A stretch of 64,000 bases of DNA from Nitrospira tepida (GTDB taxonomy: Bacteria > Nitrospirota > Nitrospiria > Nitrospirales > Nitrospiraceae): positions 248,001 to 312,000 of the forward strand of contig NZ_OX365700.1 in the NCBI RefSeq assembly GCF_947241125.1, in the 5' to 3' direction. Below the pieces are notes generated by a model. The model searched no databases, was not told the DNA's origin, and saw only the letters and a list, made by a program, of their open reading frames with translations. The position numbers and the translations under genes are program-made. This document shows, piece after piece, positions 629-33,834 of the stretch (positions are counted from its first letter, which is position 1; every line of letters begins with the position of its first letter).

Positions 629-1018
629 GAGATAACCGGACATCGCGCCGGCGGCAATCACGGAGACGGCGGCCGCCCACACACGGCTTCCTGGACGCGC
701 GCGCCAGAGACATGGCGCGTGGGCGGGAAGGTTTTATCGGCCGGCGGTCATCGTCTTCCAGTTCGCACCGGACAGGCAGTTTGCTCCAAAACGACCGCTC
801 CATTCAGTTTTTGGATCCCCTGACATAACGCTCGCCTCGTGCACCTCCGCACGGACCGTGTATCGCTGCACCGGCTTGGCGACGGCTCCCACTCCAGTGT
901 TGCAGATCGAGAGCCCGTATTCTCGCAGTTCTAGAAGTTTTGCCGTTCAATGAGTGAATTCGGGCCCCCGGCCTTCTTCTTGCTCATGTCTCATCGCGAC
1001 AGCACTAGGAGAAGCAGG
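629..1018. other. Non-coding gap before dabA
   Basis: No convincing gene lies in these 390 bases. A short inverted repeat (GCGCCA/TGGCGC around 699-716) could form a hairpin but is not followed by a T run. The dabA promoter presumably lies in the right half; I could not assign -35 or -10 boxes with confidence. Confidence 0.5.
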
Positions 1019-10396: not shown

Positions 10397-10400
10397 CATA

Positions 10401-11945
10401 TCACCTCGCCAGAAGCACATTGACCGCCCGATCCATCAATCCGCGCACCGGTTCCGGAAGCGCCAACCCAAACCCCACTAACGCAGCACCGGTCACGATC
10501 AGTGGGACATGCCCCACGTCCCATCGCTCGCCGGATTGCACGCCGTCCGGAGGGTTTCTCCATACCATCGAAGCTAGGCGATAGGTGAAGCCTCCGAACA
10601 GCGCCACTGCGAACAGGAGAAACAGTGTGACAATGGCAAGGCTGCGCACGTCGTGCGCCACGATGATCGTGAGGAATCGTCCAAGGTGCAGAGTGTCGGA
10701 GGAAAAACTTTGGGTCGCCAATGCCGACACGATCATGACTTCGCTGAGAAACATGGAAAACGGGGGCATCCCTACCAGCGCCAGGCCCGCGACCACAATG
10801 GCTATCGCCGTCACCGGCTGGACTTTCGCCAGCCCCCGCACCTCCATAATTTCGCGGGTACCGAACCGGCGGTGCACATTGCCCGCTGAGAAGAAGGCCA
10901 GCGATTTGGCCAGGGCATGGTTCAGGAGATGAAACAGGCCGCCGAATGTGCCGGCTACTCCTCCCACCCCAAACCCTGCCATCGCAATTCCCATGTGCTC
11001 AATACTGGAATAGGCGAACAAGCGCTTGTAGTCGCGCTGGATCAGAATAAAGAGCGCAGCCACCACAAACGAGAGCAGCCCGAGAAAGATCAGCAAATTG
11101 CCCGTGTAGTGCTCGGGCAGCGCGTGATCGGCAATGGCCTTGCTGCGGAGCAAGGCATAGACCGCCACCGTCTCCAACACTCCGGCCAACATCGCGACCA
11201 CCGGCGCGGGTGCTTCGCTGTAAGCGTCCGGCAACCAACTGTGCATCGGCACGAGTCCAACCTTAGTCCCATAACCGACGAGCATGAAAATGAATGCCAG
11301 TTTAAGCACATGCGGATCCAATTGGTGTGCTACTTCCAGCAGCGTGGTCACGTTCAGCGCTGCACTGACATCCCCCAGCACGCGCACGGATGAGTAATAG
11401 GTCAGGACCGTGCCAAACAGAGCTAACGCGATGCCCACAGAGCAGAGAATCAGGTATTTCCATCCGGCCTCGAATCCTTCGCGTTTGCGAAAAAACGAAA
11501 TCAGAAAGGCGGTCGCTAATGTGGTCCCTTCCATCGCAGCCCAGAGGATGCCGAGGTTGTTGGCCATGGTCGCGGCGATCATGGCGAAGAGAAACAAATG
11601 AAACAGAAAAAAGAACTGGCTCACCCGCCGTAGCGTGATCGTGCCCCGATTCAGATAATCATCGAGATAAGTCCAGGTGTACAGTGAGCAGAGAAACCCG
11701 ATGGCGGTGATGATAAGAAGAATGAACGCCGAGAGGGCGTCGAGATAGACGAACCCCCAGAGCGACGTGAACGAGCCCTGTGTCAATACCTGTTGCACGA
11801 TGGCCAGTTCTGAAATCAACAGGGCTGCCATGGTGGCCAGATTCAGCCCATGGAGCACATGGGTCTGCCTGGTGGTTAAACTGAGGACCGCGCCCATCAA
11901 TGGTGTTCCGAGGATGATCGCCACGGGCGCCACGATTGTTCCCAT
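10401..11945 (-). CDS. HyfF/NuoN-like proton-channel subunit, second copy
   Basis: A 514-residue polytopic membrane protein of the Mrp-antiporter/NuoL-M-N family. The proton-path signature is clear: a broken helix with GTKVGLVPMHSWLPDAYSEA (Lys and His in the membrane), and a second helix with KRLFAYSSIEHMG. About 13-14 membrane segments can be counted. It overlaps its upstream paralogue by 3 bases (TGATG), which shows translational coupling. It is clearly related to the preceding subunit at 11945-13426, indicating a gene duplication within the complex. It should translocate ions driven by electron transfer in the peripheral arm. Confidence 0.87.
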   Translation of the reverse strand: MGTIVAPVAIILGTPLMGAVLSLTTRQTHVLHGLNLATMAALLISELAIVQQVLTQGSFTSLWGFVYLDALSAFILLIITAIGFLCSLYTWTYLDDYLNRGTITLRRVSQFFFLFHLFLFAMIAATMANNLGILWAAMEGTTLATAFLISFFRKREGFEAGWKYLILCSVGIALALFGTVLTYYSSVRVLGDVSAALNVTTLLEVAHQLDPHVLKLAFIFMLVGYGTKVGLVPMHSWLPDAYSEAPAPVVAMLAGVLETVAVYALLRSKAIADHALPEHYTGNLLIFLGLLSFVVAALFILIQRDYKRLFAYSSIEHMGIAMAGFGVGGVAGTFGGLFHLLNHALAKSLAFFSAGNVHRRFGTREIMEVRGLAKVQPVTAIAIVVAGLALVGMPPFSMFLSEVMIVSALATQSFSSDTLHLGRFLTIIVAHDVRSLAIVTLFLLFAVALFGGFTYRLASMVWRNPPDGVQSGERWDVGHVPLIVTGAALVGFGLALPEPVRGLMDRAVNVLLAR

Positions 11946-13426
11946 CACGGCATCTCCGTCGTCGGACTGAACAGTTTCACGATCGCGTCGAGCAACAGAG
12001 TCAGTCTCGGAGGGACATGGAGTCCGATCATTCCCAATGCCCCCACGTTGAGAGCCACCGCCGCGCTGGCAAAAAGACGGCAGTGCTTGCCGAGCGGGCT
12101 TCCTGGCTCAATCGGTCCTCCTAACGCCATGCGAAACACCTGATACAGCAAGGTCGCAAATGCCAGGGCCAAGAGAAGCAGGAACAGGCCGGCAACCTCC
12201 GGCTTCACGGCATAGGCCCCTACCGCGATCAACAACTCGCTGGTGAACAGGCCAAAGGGCGGCATTCCAGCCAACGCTAGACCGGCCACGAGGACGGCCG
12301 TCCCTGCGAGCGGCATATGGACCAGCAAACCGCTGACCCGATCAAGCAATCGATGCTGGTATCCGAGGAGCACTAACCCGGCACCGTAAAACGCGGTGGA
12401 TTTCGCCAGGGCGTGGTTCAGCAAATGCCAGGCGCCAGCAAAGACCCCGGCGCCCCCGATGCCGAACCCCAGCAAGGCGATCCCGATGTGTTCGATGCTG
12501 GAATAGGCGAACAGCCGTTTGAAGTCCCGCTGGACCAGAAGAAAAGTTCCTGCGACCGTCAACGACAGCAACCCCAATGCCACCACGAGAGTGCCGGCAA
12601 AGTCCGGTCCCACTGTTCGATCCGTGATGACCTTGAACCTCAGGATGGCATAGACCGCCACGGTCAACATACTTGCGGACAACATTGCGCTCACCGGCGT
12701 CGGAGCCTCCGCATGCGCGTCTGGCAACCAAGTATGCATCGGTGCGACGCCGGCCTTCGTTCCATAACCGATCAAGGCAAAGACGAAGGCAATCTTGATG
12801 GCTGCTGGGTTCAACCGTTCGGCTGTTTGGTAAAGCTGAGACCAACGCAACGCCTCGCCCGTGACGCCCAATACCTGTTCGGATGAATAATAAATGAGGA
12901 CGGTGCCGAACAGGGCCAGCGCAATGCCGACTGAACTCAGAATCACATACTTCCAGCCGGCTTCGAGTGCCGCTTTGCTCCGCTCAAAGCCGATCAACAA
13001 GGCGGCAGAGAGCGTTGATCCTTCGATCGCGATCCACATAATGGCAATATTGTCCTGATTGACCGCGGTCAACATGGCAGCCAGGTAGAGATCAAAGAGG
13101 CAGAAGAACTGAGAGTAGCGCTGCACCGCGAGGTGGCCCCGGGTCATTTCTTCCCCCATGTACCCCACCGCGTAGAGGGTGCCCGTACCGCCCACCACGC
13201 CTAAAATCAGATCCATCCACGCGCTCAGCGCGTCGGCTTGTAATATGACGCTGACTGACAGGCCGTCTGCGGCAACAACTCGCTCTATCACCAGCAGGGC
13301 GCTCGCCAGCATCGCCCCCGCTTGAACGCAGTGCAAGGCTTCGATGGCCCTGCGCTCTTTCAGGAGTAGGCTGCCCAGTCCGGCCAAAATAGGCACGGCG
13401 ACCAGAACGATCAGAGGCCATTCCAT
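11945..13426 (-). CDS. HyfF/NuoN-like proton-channel subunit, first copy
   Basis: A 493-residue antiporter-like membrane subunit homologous to HyfF and NuoN/NuoM. The key motif GTKAGVAPMHTWLPDAHAEAPTP and the downstream KRLFAYSSIEHIG are intact, as is the conserved glutamate in the early MWIAIEGSTLSAAL helix. It shares most of its architecture with the next gene; two such subunits plus the NuoL-like HyfB give three antiporter-type modules, as in complex I. It lies 6 bases after the HyfE-like gene. The start ATG is close to the stop of that gene, with weak Shine-Dalgarno sequence (AGGAGT) inside it. Confidence 0.87.
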   Translation of the reverse strand: MEWPLIVLVAVPILAGLGSLLLKERRAIEALHCVQAGAMLASALLVIERVVAADGLSVSVILQADALSAWMDLILGVVGGTGTLYAVGYMGEEMTRGHLAVQRYSQFFCLFDLYLAAMLTAVNQDNIAIMWIAIEGSTLSAALLIGFERSKAALEAGWKYVILSSVGIALALFGTVLIYYSSEQVLGVTGEALRWSQLYQTAERLNPAAIKIAFVFALIGYGTKAGVAPMHTWLPDAHAEAPTPVSAMLSASMLTVAVYAILRFKVITDRTVGPDFAGTLVVALGLLSLTVAGTFLLVQRDFKRLFAYSSIEHIGIALLGFGIGGAGVFAGAWHLLNHALAKSTAFYGAGLVLLGYQHRLLDRVSGLLVHMPLAGTAVLVAGLALAGMPPFGLFTSELLIAVGAYAVKPEVAGLFLLLLALAFATLLYQVFRMALGGPIEPGSPLGKHCRLFASAAVALNVGALGMIGLHVPPRLTLLLDAIVKLFSPTTEMP

Positions 13427-13432
13427 GAACGA

Positions 13433-14101
13433 CTACTCCTTTAGGATCGTCAGCTTGCTCGTGTCCACGCTGTCGAAGGCGTCCTGCAAGCGGTGCGTGT
13501 AGATCCCAATGATGAGGGCGCCGACCAACACGTCAAAGAACACGCCCAGCTCCACGATCAGCGGCATCCCATAGGCGGCGGCTGTGGCCCCCAGGAAGAG
13601 GCCGTTTTCCATCACGAGAAACCCAATCACCTGCGTCACCGCCTTTTTGCGGGCGATCATCGTGAAGAAGCCGATCAACATGATGGCGAGCGCGATCGCT
13701 AGGGAATCCCGTGTCAAGAGGAAGCCGAGGGGAATGATCGGCTGGGTAATATAGAAGGCGAGCATGACCAGTCCTCCGCAAATCAGAAGTCCGGCCGGTA
13801 CGTTCACATTCATCACCAACTCCCGTGTGACGTTCAGACGCTCGATCACCTGCTTGAGGATTCTCGGGATCACGACGGCCTTGATGACGACCGTGAGCGC
13901 CGCCGCCACATAGATATGATGGATGCCCGTGAGGTATGCGACCAGGCCGGCCGTCAGAGCCAGAAAGACGGACTGCAAGGCGAACAAATCCACACAAGCC
14001 GAGAGACGACGCTGCGCCACGATCGCAAAGCAGGTCAGCAGCAGCATAGCCGATCCTAAGTCTACCAATTGAGATCCTATGTGGGGGGGCAGCAACGACA
14101 A
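13433..14101 (-). CDS. HyfE-like membrane subunit (NuoK-related)
   Basis: A 222-residue membrane protein with about six to seven hydrophobic segments, matching hydrogenase-4 component E, whose C-terminal half resembles NuoK/MnhC. The segments NGLFLGATAAAYGMPLIVELGV and GALIIGIYTHRL near the end are typical. The start is a TTG one base after the HyfC stop, with AGGA just before it. An ATG start is not available at a sensible place, so this start is likely but not certain. It would form part of the membrane arm between the NuoH-like and NuoN-like subunits. Confidence 0.82.
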   Translation of the reverse strand: MSLLPPHIGSQLVDLGSAMLLLTCFAIVAQRRLSACVDLFALQSVFLALTAGLVAYLTGIHHIYVAAALTVVIKAVVIPRILKQVIERLNVTRELVMNVNVPAGLLICGGLVMLAFYITQPIIPLGFLLTRDSLAIALAIMLIGFFTMIARKKAVTQVIGFLVMENGLFLGATAAAYGMPLIVELGVFFDVLVGALIIGIYTHRLQDAFDSVDTSKLTILKE

Positions 14102-14102
14102 G

Positions 14103-15053
14103 TTATCCTCGCAGCACGTAGAAGAAGATCATCCCGAGAAGGGCCAGAATGAAGGCGACCCCTAGAAAGTCGGTGACTCGGAACAACCGAAGCTTGGCGA
14201 ACATGCATTCGATCACGCCGATCAGCGCGGCTAGTCCCGAGACTTTCGCCAGGTAGGCCATCAGCCCGACGCCCAGCGCCAGCGGTTCCATGCTCGTCGC
14301 GATCCCCCAGGGCGCAAAGATGTTCGCGATCAACGTGAGAAACACCAGCAACTTGAGGCCTGCGGCCCATTCCACGAGCGCCAGATAGCGCCCGGAGTAT
14401 TCAAGGATCATCGCTTCGTGGATCATGGTCAGTTCAAGATGTGTCGCCGGATTGTCCACCGGCACGCGACCGGTTTCAGCGATGGCCACGATGAACAGGG
14501 CGGCAAGGGCCATCAAATGCGGCGAGGGATCAGTCACAATGCCCTCAAGCAGAGCGGTCTTGTGCACGATGGTGCTTAAATTGGTCGATCCGGCGGTCAG
14601 CGCGATGGCGAAGATGGACATGATCATGGCCGGCTCGGTGAGGGAGGCGACGATCGCCTCCCGGCTGCTCCCCATGCCCCCGAAGGCCGAGCCGGCGTCG
14701 AGCCCAGCCAGGATCAGAAAAAACGTTCCGAACGCCAGCAGATAGACCAGGGCAATGATGTTGCCGGCGAAGTTAGGAGGGACCTTCGACGTAAAAACCG
14801 GCACGAGCAGGCCGGCGAGAAGGGTTGAGGCAAACAAGAGGTACGGCGTGGTCGTGAAGATCCATGATGTTGTCGTCGAGACGACCGGCTGTTTGCGAAA
14901 CAGCTTGGCCAGGTCAGAGTATGGCTGGAAGACGCTCGCGCCCTTGCGCAATTGAAGCCGCGCCTTTACCTTCCGGATCAACCCGACGATGAATGGTGAG
15001 ACGGCCAGTAAGACGATCGCCTGCGACACCGTGAGGAGTATGGCCTGCAGCAT
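14103..15053 (-). CDS. HyfC/NuoH-like membrane subunit
   Basis: A 316-residue protein with eight or so membrane helices, homologous to NuoH and HyfC, the subunit that joins the Fe-S arm to the ion-pumping arm. Recognisable segments are GLIRKVKARLQLRKGASVFQ-type sequence after the first helix, the acidic loop SAFGGMGSSREA, and ETGRVPVDNPATHLELTMIHEA with the conserved Glu/Asp residues of the quinone-chamber region in complex I. It begins 106 bases after the NuoL-like gene and ends one base before the HyfE-like gene. Confidence 0.9.
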   Translation of the reverse strand: MLQAILLTVSQAIVLLAVSPFIVGLIRKVKARLQLRKGASVFQPYSDLAKLFRKQPVVSTTTSWIFTTTPYLLFASTLLAGLLVPVFTSKVPPNFAGNIIALVYLLAFGTFFLILAGLDAGSAFGGMGSSREAIVASLTEPAMIMSIFAIALTAGSTNLSTIVHKTALLEGIVTDPSPHLMALAALFIVAIAETGRVPVDNPATHLELTMIHEAMILEYSGRYLALVEWAAGLKLLVFLTLIANIFAPWGIATSMEPLALGVGLMAYLAKVSGLAALIGVIECMFAKLRLFRVTDFLGVAFILALLGMIFFYVLRG

Positions 15054-15159: not shown

Positions 15160-17187
15160 TTAGACCGCGAAGAGTAAAAGCAGCACCAGCGTCACAAAGA
15201 TGTAGGTCAAATAGAGATGGAGACTTCCGGCCTGGATCACGCGCAACCGGTCGGCCATGGTCGAGAAGAACATCACGACCGGGTCATAGAGATACTTTTG
15301 AAAGACCGGCTCGATGTGGAATTCGAACCGCCGTCGCTTGGCGAAATACCGAGACTCTTCGAGCAGCTCCGTCTCCAGCTTGACGGTCGGCTGATAGATG
15401 GTGCTGAACACCCGCTTGATCGGTTGGACGAAGCCGGTGGCCGTGTACTCGAGGCGTGGGCTCAGGTTGATCCCGCAGCCCCATGTCTTGTAAGCGCGTG
15501 CCTTGACGAGACCGCCGAACACGACCACCAAGAGGAGGCCGAGCAGCGAGAGCCCGAATAATCCCAGCGCGATTGCCGGCGAGGAGAGGCTAGAAAATTC
15601 GACGTTCCCCGGTGCGAGCGCCCAGCCATCCAGCGCCACGACCTTTCCTGCGATCGAGACTCCTGTGAACGGGGCGCCCACTCGATCCAGCATGGGCACC
15701 ACGAGCATTGGCAACAGTCCCAGCAACAGGCACATGGCAGCCAACAAGCCCATGCCGACGCGCATGGGCATCGGAACCTCTTCTGCATGTCTGGCATGGG
15801 CGCTCCGTGGCAGGGCGAGAAAAGACATGCCGAAGGCTTTCGCAAAACAGGCGAGGGCCAACACGCCGGTCAAGGCCAGCATCGCTGCAGTGAGTGGGAG
15901 CATGAGCTTGAGGAGGAGTGCGGGAATGTGAAAGCTCAGGAAGAGGCTTTGGAAGACGAGCCATTCGCTGACGAATCCGTTCGTCGGTGGCAGGGCGGAA
16001 ATCGAAACAGCGCCGACGAGGAAGAAGAAGCCGGTCCAGGGCATGCGACGGAGCAAGCCGCCGTATTCCTCCATATTGCGGGTATGGGTGGCGTACAGCA
16101 GCGAGCCGGCGCCGAGAAAGAGCAGGGCCTTGAACAGGGCGTGGTTGATGGTGTGGTAGAGACCAGCCAGGAGTCCCAGGGCCGCGAACTCATGGAGTCC
16201 GTAGGTGCGGAAGATCATGCCAGCCCCGATGCCGAGCAGGATGATGCCGATGTTTTCCACGCTGTGAAACGCAAGGAGGCTTTTCAGGTCATGTTCCATC
16301 AGCGCATACATCACGCCTAACAGTGCCGATACGGCACCAACCACGAGAACGGTGAAACCCCACCACCAGGGGAACTCCCCGCCGAGAAAATCGAAATAGA
16401 CCCGGACCAGGCCATAGATGGCGGTTTTAATCATGACACCGGACATCAGCGCCGAAATATGCGAGGGAGCGGCCGGGTGGGCATAGGGTAGCCAGACATG
16501 CAACGGCACGATGCCCGCCTTAGCGCCGAATCCGATCAAGGCTACAAGAAACACGAGAGTCCTCATCCCTTCCGGGAGCGGATGCTGCGGATGACGGAAC
16601 GTCTCGAAAGCGAAGGAACCGGATTCCTGGAAAAAGATCAGAAAGGCAAGCACGATGAAGGCAGTGCCCACATGCGCCATGATCAGGTAGAACAATCCGG
16701 CGTAGCGGACATCAGCCTGCTCATGTTCCGTGACCACCAGGAAATAGGAGAGCAGCGACATCAGCTCCCAGAGGATCAGGAAAAAGAAGCCGTTGTCCGC
16801 CATGACGACGAGCGTCATGGAGAGCAAGAACCCATTGTAGAGCGAGCCCATGATGGCAACGGACGATCTGCCGAAGAATTCCGTCACGTAGCCCATCGCA
16901 AAGATGGAGGCAGCCAGGCCGGCTAAGGAGATGGTAAGGACGAAGAACGACGCGAGCGGGTCGAGACGGATCGCAAAGCTCAGCAGGGGAATGGTGGAGT
17001 CGACCGAAGCGGTCCAGGGTTTCGGCGTCAGGAGGCCGGCAATCCCAAGGAGGATCCCTGCCCCGCCCGCCGACCCGGCAAGGCCGTGCGCGAGCAGGTT
17101 CTGCAATCGCGGCTTCCCGGGGAAACAGAGTGGAAGCATCAGCCCGGCGAGGTAACCGGCAAGGAGCAGGAGGAACAGATTCAACAT
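15160..17187 (-). CDS. HyfB/NuoL-like proton-pumping subunit
   Basis: A 675-residue membrane protein, first gene of the Ehr-like run. It has the antiporter fold with GFGAKAGIVPLHVWLPYAHPAAPSH and LKSLLAFHSVENIG motifs and the HALFKALLFLGAGS helix. The C-terminal region (about 560-675) contains a long polar stretch and a last hydrophobic segment, as in HyfB. It could alternatively serve as the DabB-type partner of DabA, which is also NuoL-like, but its position with HyfC/E/F/G/I homologues favours the Ehr-like complex. The upstream 200 bases hold no gene and may contain the promoter. Confidence 0.9.
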   Translation of the reverse strand: MLNLFLLLLAGYLAGLMLPLCFPGKPRLQNLLAHGLAGSAGGAGILLGIAGLLTPKPWTASVDSTIPLLSFAIRLDPLASFFVLTISLAGLAASIFAMGYVTEFFGRSSVAIMGSLYNGFLLSMTLVVMADNGFFFLILWELMSLLSYFLVVTEHEQADVRYAGLFYLIMAHVGTAFIVLAFLIFFQESGSFAFETFRHPQHPLPEGMRTLVFLVALIGFGAKAGIVPLHVWLPYAHPAAPSHISALMSGVMIKTAIYGLVRVYFDFLGGEFPWWWGFTVLVVGAVSALLGVMYALMEHDLKSLLAFHSVENIGIILLGIGAGMIFRTYGLHEFAALGLLAGLYHTINHALFKALLFLGAGSLLYATHTRNMEEYGGLLRRMPWTGFFFLVGAVSISALPPTNGFVSEWLVFQSLFLSFHIPALLLKLMLPLTAAMLALTGVLALACFAKAFGMSFLALPRSAHARHAEEVPMPMRVGMGLLAAMCLLLGLLPMLVVPMLDRVGAPFTGVSIAGKVVALDGWALAPGNVEFSSLSSPAIALGLFGLSLLGLLLVVVFGGLVKARAYKTWGCGINLSPRLEYTATGFVQPIKRVFSTIYQPTVKLETELLEESRYFAKRRRFEFHIEPVFQKYLYDPVVMFFSTMADRLRVIQAGSLHLYLTYIFVTLVLLLLFAV

Positions 17188-17399: not shown

Positions 17400-18329
17400 T
17401 CAGTGCTGCTGCTTTTGGATCATCGGCTCGATTTCTTTCTGTGTTTCCTCGGGCACGTTGTAGCGGATGTACGCGTGATCGAGCACCTCGTTGGCGTAGA
17501 GCCGCCCGGTCGGGGCCGGGACCGCGATATGGGCCTCCACTGTCCCCTTCGGGCCGATGGTGACGGTTCGCTCGATCGAGCTCCGGACATAGGGATGCCA
17601 GACGACGAGCTTATAGGTGCCCGGCGGCACATCGGTTAGGGTGAACCGGCCCTGCTCGTCCGTCTTGGCAAAGTACGGATTGGTGACGGCCAGGCCCCAG
17701 CTCTCCATGTACGCGTGGAAGCCGCATTGCATGACGAAGATCCGGCGGTTCTTGGTGAGATTGACCAATTGCTTCATTGGCGTCCCGGCCATGTGTCTGT
17801 GGTACAGCGCGGCATCGCTGCGATCCTTGAAGTTGCGCGGGTGCTGCGGATTCATCGGCAGCGGCACGTTGAACAACACGCGTGGACCCAGATGCGAGGT
17901 TTCATAGGCTTGAATGTCGTGCATGACGGGGTCCATGTTGACCACTGTCACCGGCTGATCGTCCCGCACGACGGTGGTGAACGGGAGGAAGAGGCAGTCT
18001 TTCGCTTCGATCTGCGGCACCCCTCCCTCGGCGAACGGTTTGCCCTTGTCGATCCCGTCCAGATAGACCACCACCTCGCGAAATTCGCCCGCCGGCCCGA
18101 CCTGGAACGGTTGCAGGATGCGCCAGCCCTGCCCGTCAGAAATGCGCCCGCAGTAGAATGGGTCCGGCAACGTCGTGAGGTTGTACCCTTTCGGTTTGGG
18201 GACTTGGCCGTCAAGCGTGATCGTCCCCACCACTCGTCCGCCATCCGTGACCGCGGTTTCTTCATAAGACCAGGCGGGCGAGCCTATTCCCGTCATGATT
18301 GCGATCATTGCGCTCACAAAATATCGCAT
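17400..18329 (-). CDS. Exported cupredoxin-like protein with carboxypeptidase-regulatory-type domain
   Basis: A 309-residue exported protein. A cleavable signal peptide ends around AWSYEE (residues 1-22). Candidate type 1 copper ligands are visible: a His in MDPVMHDIQ and a C-x2-H-x2-M group in MQCGFHAYMES. Between residues 210 and 270 there is a small beta-sandwich with TDEQGRFTLTDVPPGTYKLVVWHP, typical of carboxypeptidase regulatory-like domains. AGGAGAGG precedes the ATG. It lies between the POR-epsilon-like gene and the HyfB-like gene on the same strand, so it may be co-expressed with the Ehr-like complex as a periplasmic electron carrier; that link is inference. Copper binding is not proven. 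Confidence 0.7.
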   Translation of the reverse strand: MRYFVSAMIAIMTGIGSPAWSYEETAVTDGGRVVGTITLDGQVPKPKGYNLTTLPDPFYCGRISDGQGWRILQPFQVGPAGEFREVVVYLDGIDKGKPFAEGGVPQIEAKDCLFLPFTTVVRDDQPVTVVNMDPVMHDIQAYETSHLGPRVLFNVPLPMNPQHPRNFKDRSDAALYHRHMAGTPMKQLVNLTKNRRIFVMQCGFHAYMESWGLAVTNPYFAKTDEQGRFTLTDVPPGTYKLVVWHPYVRSSIERTVTIGPKGTVEAHIAVPAPTGRLYANEVLDHAYIRYNVPEETQKEIEPMIQKQQH

Positions 18330-18380: not shown

Positions 18381-18959
18381 TCACGAAGGTCGCGTTCGTT
18401 TTTGCCGGTTGACCGAATCCACGATGCGCTGAATCGTGCTGGCTGTTAAGTCACGAATCGTGAGATGGGCCTCGTCGTCTCCGTTGAAGGTGCAGAGTGC
18501 AATCGTAAAGCAATCGGTGCCGCCGCGGATGATTTTCAGCGCGATATTGGACTGGTGGCAATGCACACCGACGAAGAGGCAGACATCGATCTTGTTTTTC
18601 CAGATCGTGAGATTGGGATGATTCGGGTTGATTTCTTTTTCCGCGATGATCTTCGGGTACTTCGGGCGATAATCCGCCATCGGGATCAGCTTCGCCGGTA
18701 CGGCTTCGGCCAAGGCTTTGACCACTCTGGATTCGCGCTCGGCTTGCTCATTCCAGGCCCAGAGGACCAACGGACCCGGGAAGATCGTCGGATTCTTGGC
18801 CATGATCAGCCTCCGGGCCGCCTCGTCGATAGCGAGCTGTTCAGGGACACGTTTTCCCATCACGAGCCCTTCTCCTTTCGACGGCCCGATGACCCCCCTA
18901 TTCGAGACGGAAGGCGGAAGATATCCTTCGGGTCCAATCGTCATTTCATACGGCCTCAT
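18381..18959 (-). CDS. CdhB / ferredoxin-oxidoreductase epsilon-like subunit, copy A
   Basis: A 192-residue soluble protein. It resembles proteins annotated as CO dehydrogenase beta (CdhB-type) family, which accompany five-subunit 2-oxoacid:ferredoxin oxidoreductases in Nitrospira and Hydrogenobacter. Conserved parts are NPTIFPGPLVLWAWN, MADYRPKYPKI and NPNHPNLTIWKNKI followed by a hydrophobic strand and HCHQSNIALKIIRGGTDC. A paralogue is encoded at 21446-22135. I chose the ATG at 18959 because GGAG lies 8 bases before it. It overlaps nothing and directly follows the oxidoreductase-like gene. CdhB-like proteins adopt a nucleotide-binding fold, but the function in these complexes is not established. 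Confidence 0.65.
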   Translation of the reverse strand: MRPYEMTIGPEGYLPPSVSNRGVIGPSKGEGLVMGKRVPEQLAIDEAARRLIMAKNPTIFPGPLVLWAWNEQAERESRVVKALAEAVPAKLIPMADYRPKYPKIIAEKEINPNHPNLTIWKNKIDVCLFVGVHCHQSNIALKIIRGGTDCFTIALCTFNGDDEAHLTIRDLTASTIQRIVDSVNRQKRTRPS

Positions 18960-18984
18960 TTCGCGCACTCCTTTCCGTGAGCCT

Positions 18985-20454
18985 TCACAAGGCACCCAAT
19001 CCTTCGCGAAGGAAAATATCCATCGCCGTCAACGGCTTCCCAACCAGCGGAGTCAGCACTGTGTACTCGAATGAGAAGCCTGCACGCAGCCGGTCCCAGT
19101 AACCCTTGGTGTGACCCTCCTCGACGAGGACGATCCGACTGACGCTCCTGGCAAATGACTCGATCTCCTCATGCGACAACGGCATGATGCGCGAGGGGTA
19201 GAGACCGGCGACCTTCAGTCCGAAACTTTGGCATAGCGCCACGGCATCTCGTACCACGCCCTGCGCCGCTCCCCAGGCGACAAACCCCACATCCGCCATG
19301 ACAGTTCTCTCTCGTTGGGATGTCGCGTCAGTCCATTGAGGCCTTGTGTGGATGGCAGGATTCGGGTCAATGCTTTTCCGCCTGCCAATCATCTCGACCA
19401 AGGTATGAATGTCCAGACTCTGATGGCGTAGAGCGAGTGTGTCTTCGAGCAATACCCCGACTCCGTCACTGCGACCACTGCGGATCAACTCGTGGCCTGC
19501 GATCAATAGTCTCACGGTGTCGGAGAGATCGGAGGCGATGAAGACCTCGGGGGCCTTGAAGTCACGGAAGCACGACGCGACCGCGGCATCGTTCCCCCGG
19601 AGCAGAGCCATGACCTGCCCCTGTGGCCCTCGGTACGCTTGCACGCCTGGATGGCTATCGCTTTCAAGAACAGACACCATCGCCCCGGCGATGCCTAGGT
19701 GTTTGGAGGTCCACTGGGTGGGAGAAGCGATGAGGTCTGCATCGCAGGCGCTCCGGCATTCGCAAGAACTTACGGCGAATCCCAGCAATATGGCTCGCTC
19801 CGGCGTCAACATCAGCCGGCTTTGCTCGTGAGAGCCGCCGGGGAGAGGAAGCGAATAGATATCCCGCTTTTCGATCGCGTGGAGGCCAAAGTCCAATCCT
19901 GCCTCAAATGACCGGGGCGCCGCCAGCGATGGGGCGAGACGGCGGAGTGGGGTTTCGGGGATTCCAAGCAGTGACAACAGTGCCGCGAGCGCCGCGAGTC
20001 CTTTGCTGGGCAGTCCCTCACTGTACGGGGCGCAGAGCTCGGTCAGCGGGAGAGCATACACAATGACTCCTGCAGGGATGAGCGGAGATGGGCGATGTGC
20101 CCCGGGCGGTTCCCACAGGAGCACACTGCCTGGCTGGATCCCGATCCGCGGGAGTTCCTGAGTGTGACCATCAAGATCTATGAGCCCATCACAGCCATGT
20201 CCCATTGAATAGAAAGTTCGCGACGCGATGCGAAGGTGCAGGACACAGTCCGTGACATCGCCGCTCAGCATCCCGCGTTGCGCCATCACCGCAAAGCCCC
20301 GCCCGGTCAGAAATTGGGTGATGGGCATCAATTCCTTGAAGAGCACGGCCGCGCTGGGTCCCATGATCTTCAGGACGAAATCGAACTCTTGATGGGGACG
20401 AGGAGGAAGCCAGGCTGTAAACGGAGCCATATCAAGAGGGGTCGTGCTAGACAC
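18985..20454 (-). CDS. Divergent 2-oxoacid:ferredoxin oxidoreductase gamma/alpha-like protein
   Basis: A 489-residue protein. Its C-terminal 110 residues (VMADVGFVAWGAAQGVVRDAV, GLYPSRIMPLSHEEI, IVLVEEGHTKGYWDRLR) look like domain II of KorA/PorA alpha subunits. The N-terminal 130 residues resemble the gamma domain (GFAVMAQRGMLSGDVTDCVLHLRI). The central part, which in functional enzymes helps bind thiamine diphosphate, is poorly conserved, and no beta subunit gene is near. It may therefore be a non-catalytic relative that has kept a structural or ferredoxin-transfer role. It overlaps by 8 bases the small gene upstream and is followed by an epsilon-like gene, so it sits in an operon. Confidence 0.6.
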   Translation of the reverse strand: MSSTTPLDMAPFTAWLPPRPHQEFDFVLKIMGPSAAVLFKELMPITQFLTGRGFAVMAQRGMLSGDVTDCVLHLRIASRTFYSMGHGCDGLIDLDGHTQELPRIGIQPGSVLLWEPPGAHRPSPLIPAGVIVYALPLTELCAPYSEGLPSKGLAALAALLSLLGIPETPLRRLAPSLAAPRSFEAGLDFGLHAIEKRDIYSLPLPGGSHEQSRLMLTPERAILLGFAVSSCECRSACDADLIASPTQWTSKHLGIAGAMVSVLESDSHPGVQAYRGPQGQVMALLRGNDAAVASCFRDFKAPEVFIASDLSDTVRLLIAGHELIRSGRSDGVGVLLEDTLALRHQSLDIHTLVEMIGRRKSIDPNPAIHTRPQWTDATSQRERTVMADVGFVAWGAAQGVVRDAVALCQSFGLKVAGLYPSRIMPLSHEEIESFARSVSRIVLVEEGHTKGYWDRLRAGFSFEYTVLTPLVGKPLTAMDIFLREGLGAL

Positions 20455-20725
20455 GGTAGATGTTCCATCCCTTTCTTAGGGCCAAGACGTTCATCCAACG
20501 CACGGGATACCCGTTGAGGAAGAGATGATCGTACAGCGCAGATAAGAAGATACGCCCGCCATCTGGAAAGACCGCGCGACCGCTCCAGTCTTTGACCCCA
20601 CGGCGAAGCGCCGTTCTCAGCCCGGGATGGGTTGTCACAATCGTGTCCGTGGTCGGGTCAACCCAGATAAGGGCCGTCGCTCCCCTCGGGTACTGCACGA
20701 CCACTGTGTCGGCATTCGGTGGCAT
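20447..20725 (-). CDS. Small conserved-looking hypothetical protein
   Basis: A 92-residue soluble protein that I do not recognise. It contains a WVDPTTDTIV segment and a Trp- and Arg-rich C-terminus, and no membrane or signal segment. It overlaps the start of the oxidoreductase-like gene by 8 bases, which supports translation as part of the same operon. No strong ribosome site is visible. Confidence 0.5.
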   Translation of the reverse strand: MPPNADTVVVQYPRGATALIWVDPTTDTIVTTHPGLRTALRRGVKDWSGRAVFPDGGRIFLSALYDHLFLNGYPVRWMNVLALRKGWNIYRV

Positions 20726-20802
20726 GACTCAGATCGGATCTGCCTGTCTGCGAGCCTTGTTCCTTGGCCGTTAGTTTCTATGTCAATTCAGTGAGGCCTC
20801 TG

Positions 20803-21081
20803 CTATCCAGACTGCAACGCGACATCATTCGGTCGGGCGTAAATGGAGTCGGCCTCTAGAAAACCTGCGTGCCCATGGTGATAGGTGACTTCCACGAAGT
20901 CCCCATCTCGAAGGTCGGCAAGCTCGACCTGTGCGATGCCTCTCGCGATGAGGGTCTGGTTGCCAAGCAGCGCGCGGGCGCGGATCGCGGTTCCTCCTGG
21001 CAACACGGTCGTCACAAGAATCCACCGGGTGCCGCGCGCATCACGATCGACTCGATCAAAATGGCCCCAGAGCACCGGCAT
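20803..21081 (-). CDS. Hypothetical small beta-rich protein
   Basis: A 92-residue protein. The run GTAIRARALLGNQTLIA...VELADLRDGDFVEVTYHHG resembles the short beta-barrel repeats of DUF5666-type proteins, where DLRxGDxVEV is typical. No signal peptide is visible. It stands 10 bases after the helical-repeat gene and 77 before the next small gene, within the same minus-strand cluster. Family assignment is tentative. Confidence 0.5.
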   Translation of the reverse strand: MPVLWGHFDRVDRDARGTRWILVTTVLPGGTAIRARALLGNQTLIARGIAQVELADLRDGDFVEVTYHHGHAGFLEADSIYARPNDVALQSG

Positions 21082-21091
21082 ATCCTCATAC

Positions 21092-21433
21092 TCACATGTC
21101 GGTACGCAGAGAACGGCCAGCCCGATGGCGGCAACGAGCCATTCCTTCTCGCGCTCGGAGATTGTTGGGGTCGCAGCTCAACACCGCTTTCCAGTTGAAC
21201 CAGGCCTCCTCATGGAGTCCCATTTCTTCGAGCAGCGTCGCCATTTCATATCTGGTCACGATATCCGCCGGGCATACGTCAAGGAGATTCTGCAATCGAC
21301 TGAGTCGGCCGATCCATGATTCGGCTGGCTGGTGTTCCCTGAGTGGACCAGGTCGTGGATCGGGTTGAGGTGGCCGACCTGCATTCGCCGCCATTTTCGT
21401 TCCTCTACGTTTCTTGACTCTTCCGTTCGACAC
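21092..21433 (-). CDS. TPR-like helical repeat protein
   Basis: A 113-residue protein. Residues 45-105 form at least one and a half tetratricopeptide-like units (RYEMATLLEEMGLHEEAWFNWKAVL, then CDPNNLRAREGMARC). The first 40 residues are basic and Pro-rich; a second ATG at residue 14 could be the true start. It lies 12 bases after the epsilon-like copy B gene, so it is probably translated from the same mRNA. Role unknown; TPR proteins usually mediate assembly. Confidence 0.55.
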   Translation of the reverse strand: MSNGRVKKRRGTKMAANAGRPPQPDPRPGPLREHQPAESWIGRLSRLQNLLDVCPADIVTRYEMATLLEEMGLHEEAWFNWKAVLSCDPNNLRAREGMARCRHRAGRSLRTDM

Positions 21434-21445
21434 CGTATCGACACG

Positions 21446-22135
21446 CTACAGTGGCCATGGGCGAACCTGCTCGATCCCACGATTCATCCGGGCCTGCGTG
21501 CCCGTCAGTCGGACCGTTTTGCCATCCTTCGGCATGGCGATCCCGAGTTCTGTGCGGACGCTCCGGAAGATGTCGATGATGTGGTTCATCCGTGTCACAT
21601 CCAGGTCTTGCACGCTCAGCATGGCGTCTTCATGAATGTCGTGGCAGAACGCAATCGTCAGGCAATTGGTTCCGGCCCGCACCATTCGCAATGCGAGGTT
21701 GGCATAGTGACAATGGATGCCGATGAACAGGGCCACTTCGATCTTATTGTGCCAAATCGTCAGATTGGGATGATTGGGATTGATCCCCTCCTCCGGGTCG
21801 ATCTTGGGATATTTCGGGCGATAGTCCGGCATGGGAATGATCATGACGTTGGGAATTTCCGACGCAAGCCTCAAGAGCGCCTGTCCTTTGGCGATCCATT
21901 CCGGATGCCAAGCCCACAAATAGAGCGGCCCCGGGAAGATCGTCGGATTCGCTCGCGTAAATAGTTGGCGAGCCGCCTCGGCAATCACCTCATCTTCGGG
22001 GGCGTGCCAGCCATATAACAGCCCGAATCCGGATTCTGGATGGGTCACGCCGAGTTCTATAGCCGATGGCGGATGGAATCCGGCCGGACCGACATCAATC
22101 ACGCGTTCATGCCCTATGGCATTCAACGGGCTCAT
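21446..22135 (-). CDS. CdhB / ferredoxin-oxidoreductase epsilon-like subunit, copy B
   Basis: A 229-residue paralogue of the protein at 18381-18959. It shares NPTIFPGPLYLWAW, MPDYRPKYPKI, NPNHPNLTIWHNKI and HCHYANLALRMVRAGTNC. It has an additional C-terminal tail (VRLTGTQARMNRGIEQVRPWPL). The ATG at 22135 has GAGG upstream and gives an N-terminus like that of copy A (GPxGxxPPS); an earlier in-frame ATG at 22186 is less likely. Two epsilon-like subunits without catalytic beta subunits nearby suggest that they serve enzymes encoded elsewhere or a different complex. Confidence 0.65.
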   Translation of the reverse strand: MSPLNAIGHERVIDVGPAGFHPPSAIELGVTHPESGFGLLYGWHAPEDEVIAEAARQLFTRANPTIFPGPLYLWAWHPEWIAKGQALLRLASEIPNVMIIPMPDYRPKYPKIDPEEGINPNHPNLTIWHNKIEVALFIGIHCHYANLALRMVRAGTNCLTIAFCHDIHEDAMLSVQDLDVTRMNHIIDIFRSVRTELGIAMPKDGKTVRLTGTQARMNRGIEQVRPWPL

Positions 22136-22775: not shown

Positions 22776-23399
22776 TTACGCATGGGCCTTCACTTTCTTT
22801 CCGCCAGCCTTTTCGATGGCCTTTTGGATCTCCCCTGAAACTGCGGAGGCTTTCTCTTTCAAGGCCTTAGCCTGCGCGTCCGCACCCAGATAGTCCCCTT
22901 TCTCAATAAGCTGATGGACGGCGCTAAGATTCGCCTCTAACCCGCTGATGTCCTCCTTAAGCGCTTCAACTGCTGCCTTATCCTTTCCGGTCGGCGCTTC
23001 GGCCATGAGTTCCTTGGCCGAAGCCACAACTTGCTGTGCTTCTTTCTCCCTCTCTTTGGCCGCTGCTTGTGCCGCTTCTTTGTTTTGCGTCGCCTTGGTT
23101 GCTATGGCCGCGCCGGACTCAACGACCTTCAGCAACAGCTTGTCGGCTTCTGCATAGGATCGGAAGACAGAGAGGGCGGTTTCTTGTTTGGCCAATTCTT
23201 CCTTTGCGAGAGCGAATTGCTGTTCGAGAGTGGCCAAGTCCTCTTTCGCGTATTCTGTCGCACCGGCCGCCTTGGCCGCATCAACGGCTTTTTGAGCAGC
23301 CTCCAATTGCTCTATGGGGGGTTGCGCGCAGCCTGTCACAGCGACCATCGCTATAGCGGTTAAGCCAGCCGTCATGCCATGTCGGATGTTCAGTTTCAT
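22776..23399 (-). CDS. Lipoprotein with coiled-coil / DUF4398-like body
   Basis: A 207-residue predicted lipoprotein. The signal ends in a lipobox VTGC, so Cys22 or so would be lipidated. The mature part is almost entirely alpha-helical and Ala/Lys/Glu-rich (QLEAAQKAVDAAKAAGATEYAKEDL...), like DUF4398-type envelope proteins that sit near OmpA-like or TolC-like partners. I chose the ATG at 23399 because GGGAGGAC lies about 8 bases upstream. The long upstream in-frame extension has no signal peptide. It is the first gene of the minus-strand cluster after a 700-base gap. Confidence 0.75.
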   Translation of the reverse strand: MKLNIRHGMTAGLTAIAMVAVTGCAQPPIEQLEAAQKAVDAAKAAGATEYAKEDLATLEQQFALAKEELAKQETALSVFRSYAEADKLLLKVVESGAAIATKATQNKEAAQAAAKEREKEAQQVVASAKELMAEAPTGKDKAAVEALKEDISGLEANLSAVHQLIEKGDYLGADAQAKALKEKASAVSGEIQKAIEKAGGKKVKAHA

Positions 23400-24115
23400 A
23401 ACCATGTCCTCCCGACCACTTCTCGAAAAGCCTCCTGACACAAGAACCATTGCATGCGGGATGCCGCAGATGAACCATGCAGCGATGACGATCCATGGCA
23501 ATATAAATTGAGGGCTTAGAGTCGGCTTTATGAGCTGCAATGAGTCGAATCGATCAGTGCGTAATCGAGACGTGCACGATTTGCAGATGCTGAGTCGATG
23601 CGGATGATGGGAGATGGTATTTCTTGCTGGACGGGGAACGATCCCTGCGTCACGCAACCGATTGGGGACAGTCAGCCGCGCAAGATTCACGAATCAAATA
23701 GAGAGATGGGATTTGGAGACGCATTCTGCGATCATCTTGTGACCAATTCATCTTCTAGGCGGTGGGATTGGGCCACTCCTATGCCCTGGTTCCTTCGTCG
23801 CGTGGTAATCCCGCGTGCCTTCGGCACTCTGTGCTCAACCTAATAAGTACGACGGGCCAACCGAATGGCGGGAAATGAGTAAAGAGGATTCTTCCTGCAG
23901 AAGTTGCACGCTTTCATGAACTGCGTGTAAATGCGAAGCATCGCTGGCCTCCCCTTTCAGATGGTGCGTTCACTCCTTTTTACTGTCCTTCCGCAACAAT
24001 ATTGAAACATTAGGTCACTGGGTCTCTCCGCAGTTGTTCAAGCGGGCATGGCCTATGCTGAGTCAATGGGCAGCAGGAAGTCGCTCGTTATGAACATTCA
24101 CGACAGGAGACGTAC
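23400..24115. other. Intergenic region between divergent genes
   Basis: No convincing gene is seen in about 715 bases. The flanking genes diverge (lipoprotein to the left, hypothetical protein to the right), so promoters for both should lie here. Short open frames are present on both strands but lack ribosome sites and recognisable composition. Confidence 0.5.
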
Positions 24116-24672: not shown

Positions 24673-26031
24673 TTAGTCTCTGATCCCGTATTCCTTGATC
24701 TTGTACTGCAAGGCCCTCAAGCTGATCCCCAGGAGCTTGGCGGCCTTCTCCCGGTGGTTGGTCACCTCCGCCAAGGTCCGTCGGATCACGTCGCGCTCGA
24801 TCTGTTCCAGCGAGGTCCCGAGCGTCACCACCATGGTGCGAACGTCCTCCCGGCTGGCCTGGATCTCCTCGGGCAGGTGTTCCGGTCGGATCACGCTGTC
24901 CTTCACCGTAACCACCAACCGCTCCATGAGGTTCCGGAGCTGGCGGATGTTCCCGGGCCAGGCATACAACCGCAGCAATCGCATCGCCTCCCGCGACACC
25001 TCTTTAGGAGCGCGGTGATGCTGGGCCGAAAACTCCGCCAGAAAACGTTCCGCGAGAAGCGGGATATCGTCCGCCCGGTCACGAAGCGGGGGGAGGCGGA
25101 TCGGCACGACATTGAGGCGATAATAGAGGTCCTCGCGAAAGCCGCCTTGCTTGACGGCTTCTTCGAGATTGCGGTTCGTGGCGGCCACGATCCGCGTGTC
25201 CACGGTGATCAATTTGGTCCCGCCCAGCCGGCGGAACTCTTTGGTTTCCAACACGCGCAGGAAATCGACCTGCGACTTCAGGGAGAGCTCCCCCACTTCG
25301 TCCAGGAGCAATGTGCCGCCGTCCGCCAGCTCGAACCGCCCCATCTTGGTGGTCATGGCGCCGGTGAACGCGCCTTTCTCGTATCCGAACAACTCGCTCT
25401 CAAAGAGGTTCTCGGGCAACGCGCCGCAGTTCATGGTGATGAAGGGTCCGTCGGCCCTGCGGCTCTTGTGATGGATGGCCCGCGCGACGAGTTCCTTGCC
25501 GGTTCCGCTTTCGCCGGTGAGCAGGACGGTGACATCGCTGTCCGCCACCATCTCCACCAGCGAATAGACCCGTTGCATGGGCTCGCTCTCGCCCACCATC
25601 TGGTCGAAGCGGATTCTCGCTTCGAGACGGTCGCGGAGTTGCCGGTTCTCGCTCGCCAGCGCCTGGCGCTCCAGCGCCTTGGCGACCGCGACGGGAAATC
25701 GCTCGCGATCGATGGGTTTGGTGAGGTAGTCGTAGGCGCCCCCGCGCATCGCCTCGACCGCCGTATCGATCGATCCGTAGGCGGTCATCACCACGACTTC
25801 CGTCTGCGGCCACTGCTCTTTGAGCCGTTGGAGAAAGGCCATGCCCCCGATGCCGGGCATCTTCAGATCGGTGATGACCAATTCCACGGACGAAGCCGTT
25901 AACTGCTCCAGCGCTTCTTCTGCTGTTCCTACGCCTCGCACCTCATACCCCTTCTTTTCGAGCATCGTCACCAGGGCCCCGCGAATGTTGATCTCGTCGT
26001 CCACGACGAGGATGCGCGCGGCCGGCTTCAT
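24673..26031 (-). CDS. NtrC-family sigma-54-dependent response regulator
   Basis: A 452-residue transcription activator. Domains in order are a receiver domain (1-120) with phospho-acceptor Asp in VITDLKMPGIGG and Lys in YLTKPIDRE; an AAA+ domain (about 145-380) with Walker A GESGTGKE, the sigma-54-contacting GAFTGA loop and Walker B LLLDEVGEL; and a Fis-type helix-turn-helix at the end (HREKAAKLLGISLRALQYKIKEYG). All key motifs are intact, so it should activate sigma-54 promoters after phosphorylation. It overlaps the kinase gene upstream by 4 bases (ATGA). Its targets are not evident; I found no clear -24/-12 element in the flanks. Confidence 0.95.
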   Translation of the reverse strand: MKPAARILVVDDEINIRGALVTMLEKKGYEVRGVGTAEEALEQLTASSVELVITDLKMPGIGGMAFLQRLKEQWPQTEVVVMTAYGSIDTAVEAMRGGAYDYLTKPIDRERFPVAVAKALERQALASENRQLRDRLEARIRFDQMVGESEPMQRVYSLVEMVADSDVTVLLTGESGTGKELVARAIHHKSRRADGPFITMNCGALPENLFESELFGYEKGAFTGAMTTKMGRFELADGGTLLLDEVGELSLKSQVDFLRVLETKEFRRLGGTKLITVDTRIVAATNRNLEEAVKQGGFREDLYYRLNVVPIRLPPLRDRADDIPLLAERFLAEFSAQHHRAPKEVSREAMRLLRLYAWPGNIRQLRNLMERLVVTVKDSVIRPEHLPEEIQASREDVRTMVVTLGTSLEQIERDVIRRTLAEVTNHREKAAKLLGISLRALQYKIKEYGIRD

Positions 26032-27437
26032 GATGCGAGCGAGACCGGTTGAGCGATGGGTTGGGGTTGCCGCGCTGCCGCGGGGAAGGTCATGACGACG
26101 GTCGTGCCGCTCCCCGGCGCGCTGGACACCTGAATGGTGCCGCCGTGGTCCTGCATGATGCGATAGGCGATGGCGAGGCCGAGTCCGGTGCCGCCGGGCT
26201 TGGTGGTGTAGAACGGTTCGAACACCCGAGACAGCTCCTGTTTCGTGATGCCGATTCCGGTATCCGTGACCGAAAGGGCCACCCAGCGCTTGCCGTCCGA
26301 GTCCTGTGCTCGCGCGCCGATGCGGCAGAGCCCGCCGTTCGGCATGGCGTGCAGGGCGTTCACCACGATGTTCAGCAGGACCTGGCTGATGGCCGTTTCA
26401 TCCCCCATCACACAGGGAACCGGTTGTTCCACGTCGAGTTCGAGCCGGACCTTTCGCTCCTCGGCCTCGAATTGCATGAGGGCCGCGACATGCTCGATCA
26501 GCGCCGTCATATCAACCTCGTGCAGGTCCAACGACCCCGGATGGGCGAACTTCATGAAGTTGTCGAGAATCACCGACAGCCGGCGGCATTCGGCATTGAG
26601 GACATGCAGATACCGCGCGCCCTGGCCTCCTGCCATTCCGCTGTCCCGAAGCTCTTCCTCCAGCAAGTGCAGGTTCAGATCCATGGCGCTCAAGGGATTC
26701 CGCAGCTCATGGGCCACCCCCGCCGAGAGGGTATGCAGGGCCGCCAACTTCTCCGCGACGCGGACCCGTTGTTCCAGGGCGAGCCAGTCCGTAATGTCCT
26801 GGGCCTGCAGGATCACGCCGGCCCGTTCCCCGCCGTCTCCCGTCAGCTCCGCCGTGCTCACGCGGATGGTGCGAGCCTGGCGATCGGCGCTGTCATAGGG
26901 CAGGTCCTTCTGGCTCATGTGCCGATGGCGGCGGAGCGCGCTATCGAGCACCTCGCGGATCGTCTCGCCCTCCGCAAACGCCGTTTCGTAGGCATTGCCC
27001 AGCAAGTCCGCCGAGGCGCGTTTCAGCACCGCCTCGGCCGTGGGATTCACCGCGGTGATGACCCCGTCACGGTTGATCGTCAGGATGCCGGTCGGAATGC
27101 TTTGAAGGATGTTCCTGGCCAAACCCTTCACCTCCTCAAGGGTGCGTCTCGTGCTGTCGTAATGCAGCCAGGTAATGACCGCCGCGATCCCGATCGCGCT
27201 GACGAGGAACATGAGCAGGGTGACCATGATCAAATCGCGGCGCGACTGCCACAAGGCGGGGAACAATTCACGAGGGAGAGGGCGATCATCGCCGAACCCC
27301 TGCAGCAGGAGCTTGTCGTGCTCCAAGCTGAGGAGCAGGATCACCGAGACGACGATGGCCAGGATGAGCACGACCGAGGCGATGAGCCGGTAGGGAATCC
27401 CGCGGATAAACGTGGTTATAGGGGCAGGCCGAAACAT
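26028..27437 (-). CDS. Membrane PAS-domain sensor histidine kinase
   Basis: A 469-residue sensor kinase paired with the NtrC-type regulator. It has two membrane segments (about 17-37 and 70-90) bracketing a short periplasmic loop, a PAS domain (about 105-215, NILQSIPTGILTINRDG), a HisKA dimerisation helix with the H-box AGVAHELRNPLSAMDL, and an ATPase domain with NIVVNALHAMPNGG, DTGIGI and GTGLGLAI boxes. It lies upstream of and overlaps the regulator by 4 bases. The stimulus is unknown; the small external loop suggests membrane or internal PAS sensing. Confidence 0.93.
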   Translation of the reverse strand: MFRPAPITTFIRGIPYRLIASVVLILAIVVSVILLLSLEHDKLLLQGFGDDRPLPRELFPALWQSRRDLIMVTLLMFLVSAIGIAAVITWLHYDSTRRTLEEVKGLARNILQSIPTGILTINRDGVITAVNPTAEAVLKRASADLLGNAYETAFAEGETIREVLDSALRRHRHMSQKDLPYDSADRQARTIRVSTAELTGDGGERAGVILQAQDITDWLALEQRVRVAEKLAALHTLSAGVAHELRNPLSAMDLNLHLLEEELRDSGMAGGQGARYLHVLNAECRRLSVILDNFMKFAHPGSLDLHEVDMTALIEHVAALMQFEAEERKVRLELDVEQPVPCVMGDETAISQVLLNIVVNALHAMPNGGLCRIGARAQDSDGKRWVALSVTDTGIGITKQELSRVFEPFYTTKPGGTGLGLAIAYRIMQDHGGTIQVSSAPGSGTTVVMTFPAAARQPQPIAQPVSLAS

Positions 27438-32570: not shown

Positions 32571-32575
32571 CTTAC

Positions 32576-33757: not shown

Positions 33758-33834
33758 GACGGCCTTCCTCACTGTCCTGTCCAGGCTCCTGTTCCTGCCC
33801 TGTCCGCCATCGCGCGGTCCTTGCGTCAGTCCCG

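Follow-up and report, generated by a model that had tools for sequence, protein, structure and literature searches.

The window, by which we mean the whole 64,000-nucleotide stretch of Nitrospira tepida DNA that was analysed, carries on its minus strand a cassette of six genes in the order eps1-TPR113-sm92b-sm92a-gamma-alpha-eps2, located between a histidine kinase/sigma-54 regulator pair and the operon of an Ehr complex. Both regulators were identified with Pfam: a histidine kinase with PAS, HisKA and HATPase domains (26028..27437), conserved upstream of the cassette and upstream of cassette-free Ehr operons alike, and a sigma-54-dependent response regulator (24673..26031) whose sequence identity is 66-88% across almost all related loci. 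A coiled-coil, lipoprotein-like open reading frame (22776..23690) with no confident family was recovered by tblastn in several loci and is often found between regulator and cassette. The cassette begins with eps1 (21446..22135) and ends with eps2 (18381..18959), two PF02552 proteins (Pfam E-values of 3e-34 and 2e-38, respectively), the latter preceded by gamma-alpha (18985..20454), a degenerate fusion of the gamma and alpha subunits of 2-oxoacid:ferredoxin oxidoreductases (OFOR). An earlier note had pointed out these three proteins in the interval 18381-22135, which in addition holds three small conserved genes. TPR113 (21092..21433) encodes a small TPR protein (TPR_17, 8.8e-6) that is conserved and also occurs in cassette-free Ehr operons, and sm92b (20803..21081) encodes a small protein conserved in many cassettes for which no Pfam match was found. 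The third gene, sm92a (20447..20725), overlaps the gamma-alpha gene and is conserved together with it; it encodes a small alpha/beta protein with 19 invariant columns across 18 sequences, and its structure model (pLDDT 79) gave no convincing fold match.

Downstream of the cassette lies a gene for an exported cupredoxin-like protein with a carboxypeptidase-regulatory-like domain (17400..18329), in which H137, C202, H205 and M208 are invariant among 13 homologs and which is part of Ehr operons both with and without the cassette. The Ehr structural genes follow, all on the same strand and with Pfam support for the HyfB-like antiporter subunit (15160..17187), the HyfC/NuoH-like subunit (14103..15053), two HyfF-like antiporter subunits (11945..13426, present as an extra copy in some genomes, and 10401..11948) and the HyfI/NuoB-like small subunit (8185..8712). 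The HyfE/NuoK-like subunit (13433..14101) matches Oxidored_q2 weakly and is 77-94% conserved. The membrane part of the complex comprises three Proton_antipo_M proteins and an NADHdh (NuoH-like) protein. The HyfG/NuoCD-like large subunit (8804..10420), whose nearest solved structure is that of formate hydrogenlyase (7z0s), has no CxxC in its 538 residues and hence no [NiFe] ligands, and HyfI carries the [4Fe-4S] cysteine set C53, C56, C120 and C150. A motif scan found no ferredoxin-type subunit in the Ehr operons scanned. In-frame TGA codons noticed in HyfG of relatives were dismissed as an artefact, since in those checked they occupy residues 2-3 and so precede the true start. About half of Nitrospirales genomes encode Ehr, the function of which is stated as unknown (PMC12342949).

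In a tree of 75 delta-type proteins, eps2 grouped with the delta subunit of POR with a support of 100/100, eps1 was nested inside the OGOR delta clade, and the eps1 and eps2 paralogs were each monophyletic at 100/100. The CO_dh-like subunit is named delta in Aquifex, and five-subunit forms of POR and OGOR are known from Aquificaceae and Nitrospira (PMC10052474, PMC8115632). As judged from these sequence relationships, eps1 arose from the CO_dh-like (delta) subunit of OGOR, eps2 from its POR counterpart, so that the generic "epsilon (CdhB-like)" identity previously proposed for both gives way to one paralog of each five-subunit enzyme's delta. Both proteins bear the Pfam name CO_dh, and a CODH has been reported in 'Ca. 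Nitrospira nitrosa' next to its hyf-like operon (PMC5596200), from which one could read the cassette as a relict of CO dehydrogenase/acetyl-CoA synthase. We reject this extremely improbable reading on the grouping of eps1 and eps2 with OGOR and POR deltas and on profile searches that found neither Ni-CODH (PF03063) nor ACS beta (PF03598) in the genome; as a candidate explanation, the reported CODH may more likely be a PF02552 paralog of the cassette.

Almost every family member encodes one delta of the POR type and one of the OGOR type, to which two further deltas are added in most cassette carriers. In G104 and G073, eps1 is absent or a remnant. Within the window, no OFOR alpha, beta, gamma or ferredoxin subunit genes accompany eps1 or eps2. 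The only case in which a cassette-type delta is encoded with other OFOR subunits is provided by two related genomes, G039 and G045, where the OGOR operon has no delta gene of its own and is adjoined by an eps1-type gene, the only OGOR-type delta found there, whereas their congener G042 retains a normal OGOR operon. Because it replaced the resident delta gene in this natural exchange, the eps1-type protein probably works as an OGOR subunit. The cassette deltas (82 and 84.5%) are conserved like the canonical deltas (80 and 85%), as would be expected if they bound the same partners, and 46 positions are invariant over all four delta groups; the corresponding value for gamma-alpha is 48%. No solved relatives of eps2 were found by sequence.

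The gamma-alpha protein (489 residues) matches the fused gamma-alpha OFOR subfamily TIGR03710 (2.5e-14), and its best solved relative by sequence is the 573-residue gamma-alpha chain of Magnetococcus OGOR (6n2n; 6e-17). Comparison of the two folds (Z 17.6, rmsd 14.6 over 403 residues) gave a full-length match in which all three OFOR domains are retained in identical order. Unlike 6n2n, gamma-alpha has a shortened active-site domain, an invariant C-x5-C in place of the substrate motif and no beta partner. Pfam profile searches found no POR_N domain in it, and the YPITP substrate motif is absent from its 18 orthologs, in which C231, C237, W248, H252, D309 and D312 are invariant. It can be aligned to catalytic alpha subunits only in domain II. 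The poor conservation of its middle part described in the earlier note holds against catalytic alpha, and does not hold within its own family, where this part is conserved to about the same degree as the remainder. No OFOR beta gene lies near the cassette. A search for a hidden beta subunit gave no match with PF12367, and PF02775 matched, beside other thiamine enzymes, only canonical OFOR beta genes. The genome has just two of these, both within complete five-subunit POR and OGOR clusters, which bears out the missing beta subunit noted before. Gamma-alpha is predicted to be catalytically inactive. The retained architecture and the new invariant residues could also be those of a reduced new oxidoreductase, made of gamma-alpha, eps1 and eps2 with a beta subunit borrowed from POR or OGOR and acting on a different substrate; given the lost POR_N domain and YPITP motif, the shortened active-site domain and a genome with no spare beta gene, we regard this as very unlikely.

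The distribution of the cassette was surveyed in 147 Nitrospiraceae genomes. HyfG was found in 77 of them, the cassette, which is restricted to Nitrospirales, in 21, and both in 16. Since some 20 genomes share full-length orthologs in the recurring gene order, the gene set is not a chance assembly, and the neighbourhood, whose conservation the earlier note had put forward for checking, is conserved. The loss of catalytic features, the missing beta subunit and the loss of eps1 in some carriers might suggest the decaying remains of a duplicated POR/OGOR cluster; however, the frames are open over their full length with invariant residues in divergent genomes, and dN/dS lies at roughly 0.26-0.44 in gamma-alpha and roughly 0.05-0.27 in the deltas. 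A pseudogene cluster was rejected on this conservation and purifying selection, and we give it next to no credence. Of 25 regions between regulator and operon, 21 contain sigma-54-like sites, where 5.9 would be expected; within the window itself the site is poor and no strong one was found.

The association of the cassette with Ehr can be broken. Four loci in three genomes (G036, G143 and both loci of G108), one of them with a deletion scar, retain the cassette without Ehr, and the two are therefore separable. On the G036 branch, which may include time before the loss of Ehr, dN/dS derived from pairwise values is around 0.2 in gamma-alpha and around 0.1 in the deltas, so that the cassette may have a use independent of Ehr. 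The persistence of Ehr-free cassettes that appear to be under selection is in line with a regulatory or protective function, in which the cassette proteins would bind POR and OGOR to shield, store, assemble or down-regulate them, for instance under oxygen or energy stress, and would have only the sigma-54 regulon in common with Ehr. A dead gamma-alpha and delta paralogs would suit such a holding or decoy role, as would a cassette without electron carriers. On the other hand, the cassette directly precedes the Ehr structural genes in most carriers, and the order cassette-(cupredoxin)-HyfB recurs even at L108, a distant locus (30% identity) that is rearranged and has its regulators inverted. Co-occurrence with Ehr is also above chance (16/21 versus 61/126, Fisher p 0.02, genomes being counted regardless of relatedness). 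We consider a regulatory or protective function a real possibility that falls short of probable.

The reading we tentatively prefer, as quite possible though not at even likelihood, is that the cassette is a regulated OFOR-remodelling module for POR and OGOR, the pair of reductive TCA cycle carboxylases that depend on ferredoxin, and may dock them on Ehr where Ehr is present. The histidine kinase and the sigma-54 regulator would turn on the cassette along with Ehr, whereupon eps1 would replace the delta subunit of OGOR and eps2 that of POR. Gamma-alpha would act as a pseudo-enzyme, keeping the OFOR architecture while holding neither thiamine diphosphate nor substrate, and would serve as a docking chain. 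In carriers of Ehr, a complex-I-like and presumably ion-translocating complex with neither a nickel site nor a ferredoxin subunit, the remodelled enzymes may be brought to it, and ion motive force and low-potential electrons might be exchanged in one direction or the other, either directly or via the ferredoxin subunit of POR and OGOR themselves. The electron bridge between a 2-oxoacid oxidoreductase and Ehr proposed in the earlier note is supported on the oxidoreductase side, more strongly than the note could know, by one delta paralog per enzyme and a real OGOR subunit replaced in two genomes; the connection to Ehr fares less well, as no recognisable Fe-S or flavin motif was found in any cassette protein, eps1, eps2 and gamma-alpha included, 61 of 77 Ehr-bearing genomes are cassette-free, and the four Ehr-free loci retain the cassette. 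The absent or reduced eps1 of G104 and G073 and the poor sigma-54-like site in the window likewise count against the preferred reading. Neither a beta partner for the alpha-like protein nor an unconserved neighbourhood, the two outcomes it had named as contrary, was encountered. A bolder version, in which Ehr is an ion-driven electron pump docking both carboxylases through the swapped deltas and the gamma-alpha adaptor, and passes low-potential electrons on to them from the quinol pool with no need for free ferredoxin, seems to us unlikely; if true, it would amount to a membrane-coupled CO2-fixing supercomplex.

In available excerpts of two papers, the origin of the low-potential electrons that nitrite oxidisers use for the reductive TCA cycle is an open question, and 2M complex I is their candidate ferredoxin reductase (PMC3578206, PMC6606698). 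One spare delta per carboxylase, placed beside Ehr under the same regulators, offers a molecular lead joining the function of Ehr to this electron supply, and the position of the cassette may point to a connection, not suspected before, of CO2 fixation with membrane energy. A role of this kind would resemble that of 2M complex I, which the same excerpts propose to supply the cycle with low-potential electrons; it is a different complex from Ehr, and they report no OFOR-derived parts for it. The operon in the window corresponds to the Nitrospira Ehr complex, hyf-like and related to group-4 hydrogenases, with HyfBCEFGI and no nickel ligands (PMC12342949, PMC10284858, PMC5596200). It differs from published Ehr in the cassette, an optional block between regulators and structural genes of which we found no description in the papers searched on Nitrospira Ehr, a set that covers the literature incompletely. 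Eps1 and eps2 resemble five-subunit POR and OGOR (PMC10052474, PMC8115632) in being paralogs of their delta subunits; unlike the subunits of those enzymes, their genes lie away from those for alpha, beta, gamma and ferredoxin subunits, with one delta paralog of each type brought together in a single cassette beside Ehr.

On the - strand the window carries a single co-oriented gene series in which a histidine kinase, a sigma-54 regulator and a lipoprotein-like ORF are followed by eps1, TPR113, sm92b, sm92a, gamma-alpha and eps2, and then by an exported cupredoxin-like protein, HyfB, HyfC, HyfE, HyfF1, HyfF2, HyfG and HyfI. The interval flagged in the earlier note (18381-22135, -) spans eps1 through eps2 and is termed here the cassette; its sm92a and gamma-alpha genes overlap and a short gap separates gamma-alpha from eps2. 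Judging from gene position, the kinase and the regulator would jointly control the operon genes. Sigma-54-like sites were found in 21 of 25 regions between the regulator and the first operon gene (5.9 expected from shuffles keeping base composition only), the site of this window being weak. An RND efflux set (AcrB-like, HlyD-like and OEP; 29472-35088, -) lies close to the regulators. Convergent with the Ehr operon are an MpsC-family gene (PF10057, Na+-translocating membrane-potential system; 7646-8200, +), which slightly overlaps the end of HyfI, and, about 1 kb off, an isocitrate/isopropylmalate dehydrogenase family gene (6169-7185, +), possibly the rTCA isocitrate dehydrogenase. At the edge of the window a NuoI-like ferredoxin protein comes to its end (3-290, +), directly followed by a 1108-aa ORF assigned by eye as DabA-like (inorganic carbon uptake; 950-4276, +).

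Four PF02552 proteins are encoded in the genome, two of them in complete five-subunit clusters. The alpha subunit of one cluster (locus L005) contains TPSFYTGSEVIK, resembling the N. marina POR alpha peptide TPSFFTGSEVIK (PMC8115632), and on this sequence likeness L005 was taken as POR and the other cluster, L006, as OGOR. The PF02552-type subunit of such clusters is named delta in Aquifex, its function being given as unknown (PMC10052474). A maximum-likelihood tree (75 rows) placed eps1 inside OGOR delta and eps2 with POR delta; the tool issued a long-branch warning, the POR-side/OGOR-side split nevertheless reaching 100/100. In G039 and G045, two genomes from a different family within the order, the OGOR operon reads beta-gamma-ferredoxin-alpha, without delta, and an eps1-type gene (73-76% identical) adjoins alpha convergently (L139, 10105-10815; L140, 8972-9622). 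No further OGOR-type delta was found in either genome, and their congener G042 has the operon in normal order with delta present. An eps1-type gene has thus taken the place of delta at these loci, and the simplest reading, which they support, is that eps1-type proteins are able to serve OGOR as a subunit. No equivalent replacement by eps2 was found; eps2 may pair with POR.

Gamma-alpha matches TIGR03710 and resembles in sequence the gamma part and domain II of the Magnetococcus OGOR gamma-alpha chain 6n2n. Its predicted fold (single chain, pLDDT 75.8) matches 6n2n along the full length (Z 17.6, rmsd 14.6 over 403 residues, high because of domain placement in the model). Catalytic features have been lost: the Pfam active-site domain POR_N, matched genome-wide by only two canonical alpha genes, is not detected in gamma-alpha, and profile comparison with canonical alpha aligned domain II alone. 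In 18 gamma-alpha orthologs an invariant C-x5-C, with W248 and H252 downstream of it, occupies roughly the expected position of the YPITP substrate motif (placed by eye). No beta subunit free to pair with gamma-alpha was found in the genome. Pairwise dN/dS values of 0.26-0.44 among the genomes compared point to selection, and we infer a catalytically dead but maintained chain, which could act in docking.

All gamma-alpha orthologs in named genomes belong to Nitrospira or its order, and gene order in the cassette is conserved. Of 147 Nitrospiraceae genomes, 77 carry the Ehr large subunit, 21 the eps2 type (at least 80% identity, next best 58%; counts taken from tables) and 16 both (Fisher p 0.02, uncorrected for relatedness). 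The relatives are mostly metagenome-assembled, contig ends hiding some neighbourhoods; gamma-alpha and eps2 always occur together where the contig permits a check, and eps1 is absent from G104 and reduced in G073. Cassette and Ehr are separable. Cassette-free Ehr operons for the most part retain both the same regulators and the TPR gene, the cupredoxin often being present as well, and the cassette occurs without Ehr in three genomes of a single genus (G036, G108 at two loci, and G143). At one G108 locus (L069, 3280-3878) fused cupredoxin and HyfI gene fragments form a deletion scar, Ehr being gone and the cassette intact. On the G036 branch, dN/dS derived from pairwise values is ~0.22 for gamma-alpha, ~0.12 for eps2 and ~0.08 for eps1. 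That the two can be parted speaks against cassette and Ehr being a single obligate machine; we therefore tentatively favour a cassette that remodels POR and OGOR, with optional docking on Ehr, and regard a purely regulatory or protective role as nearly as likely. Where Ehr is present, the remodelled POR and OGOR may exchange electrons with it.

The exported cupredoxin-like protein (17400-18329, -), whose gene belongs to Ehr operons both with and without the cassette, has invariant H137, C202, H205 and M208. In cupredoxins such a His/Cys/His/Met set forms a type-1 copper site, with which these residues are in keeping, and the sequence suggests a periplasmic copper electron carrier tied to Ehr. 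HyfG contains no CxxC and thus, by its sequence, lacks a nickel site, HyfI retains its four cluster cysteines, and a scan of Ehr operons revealed no ferredoxin-type motif. In these subunit features the complex matches published descriptions of Nitrospira Ehr, the function of which is given there as unknown (PMC12342949, PMC10284858).
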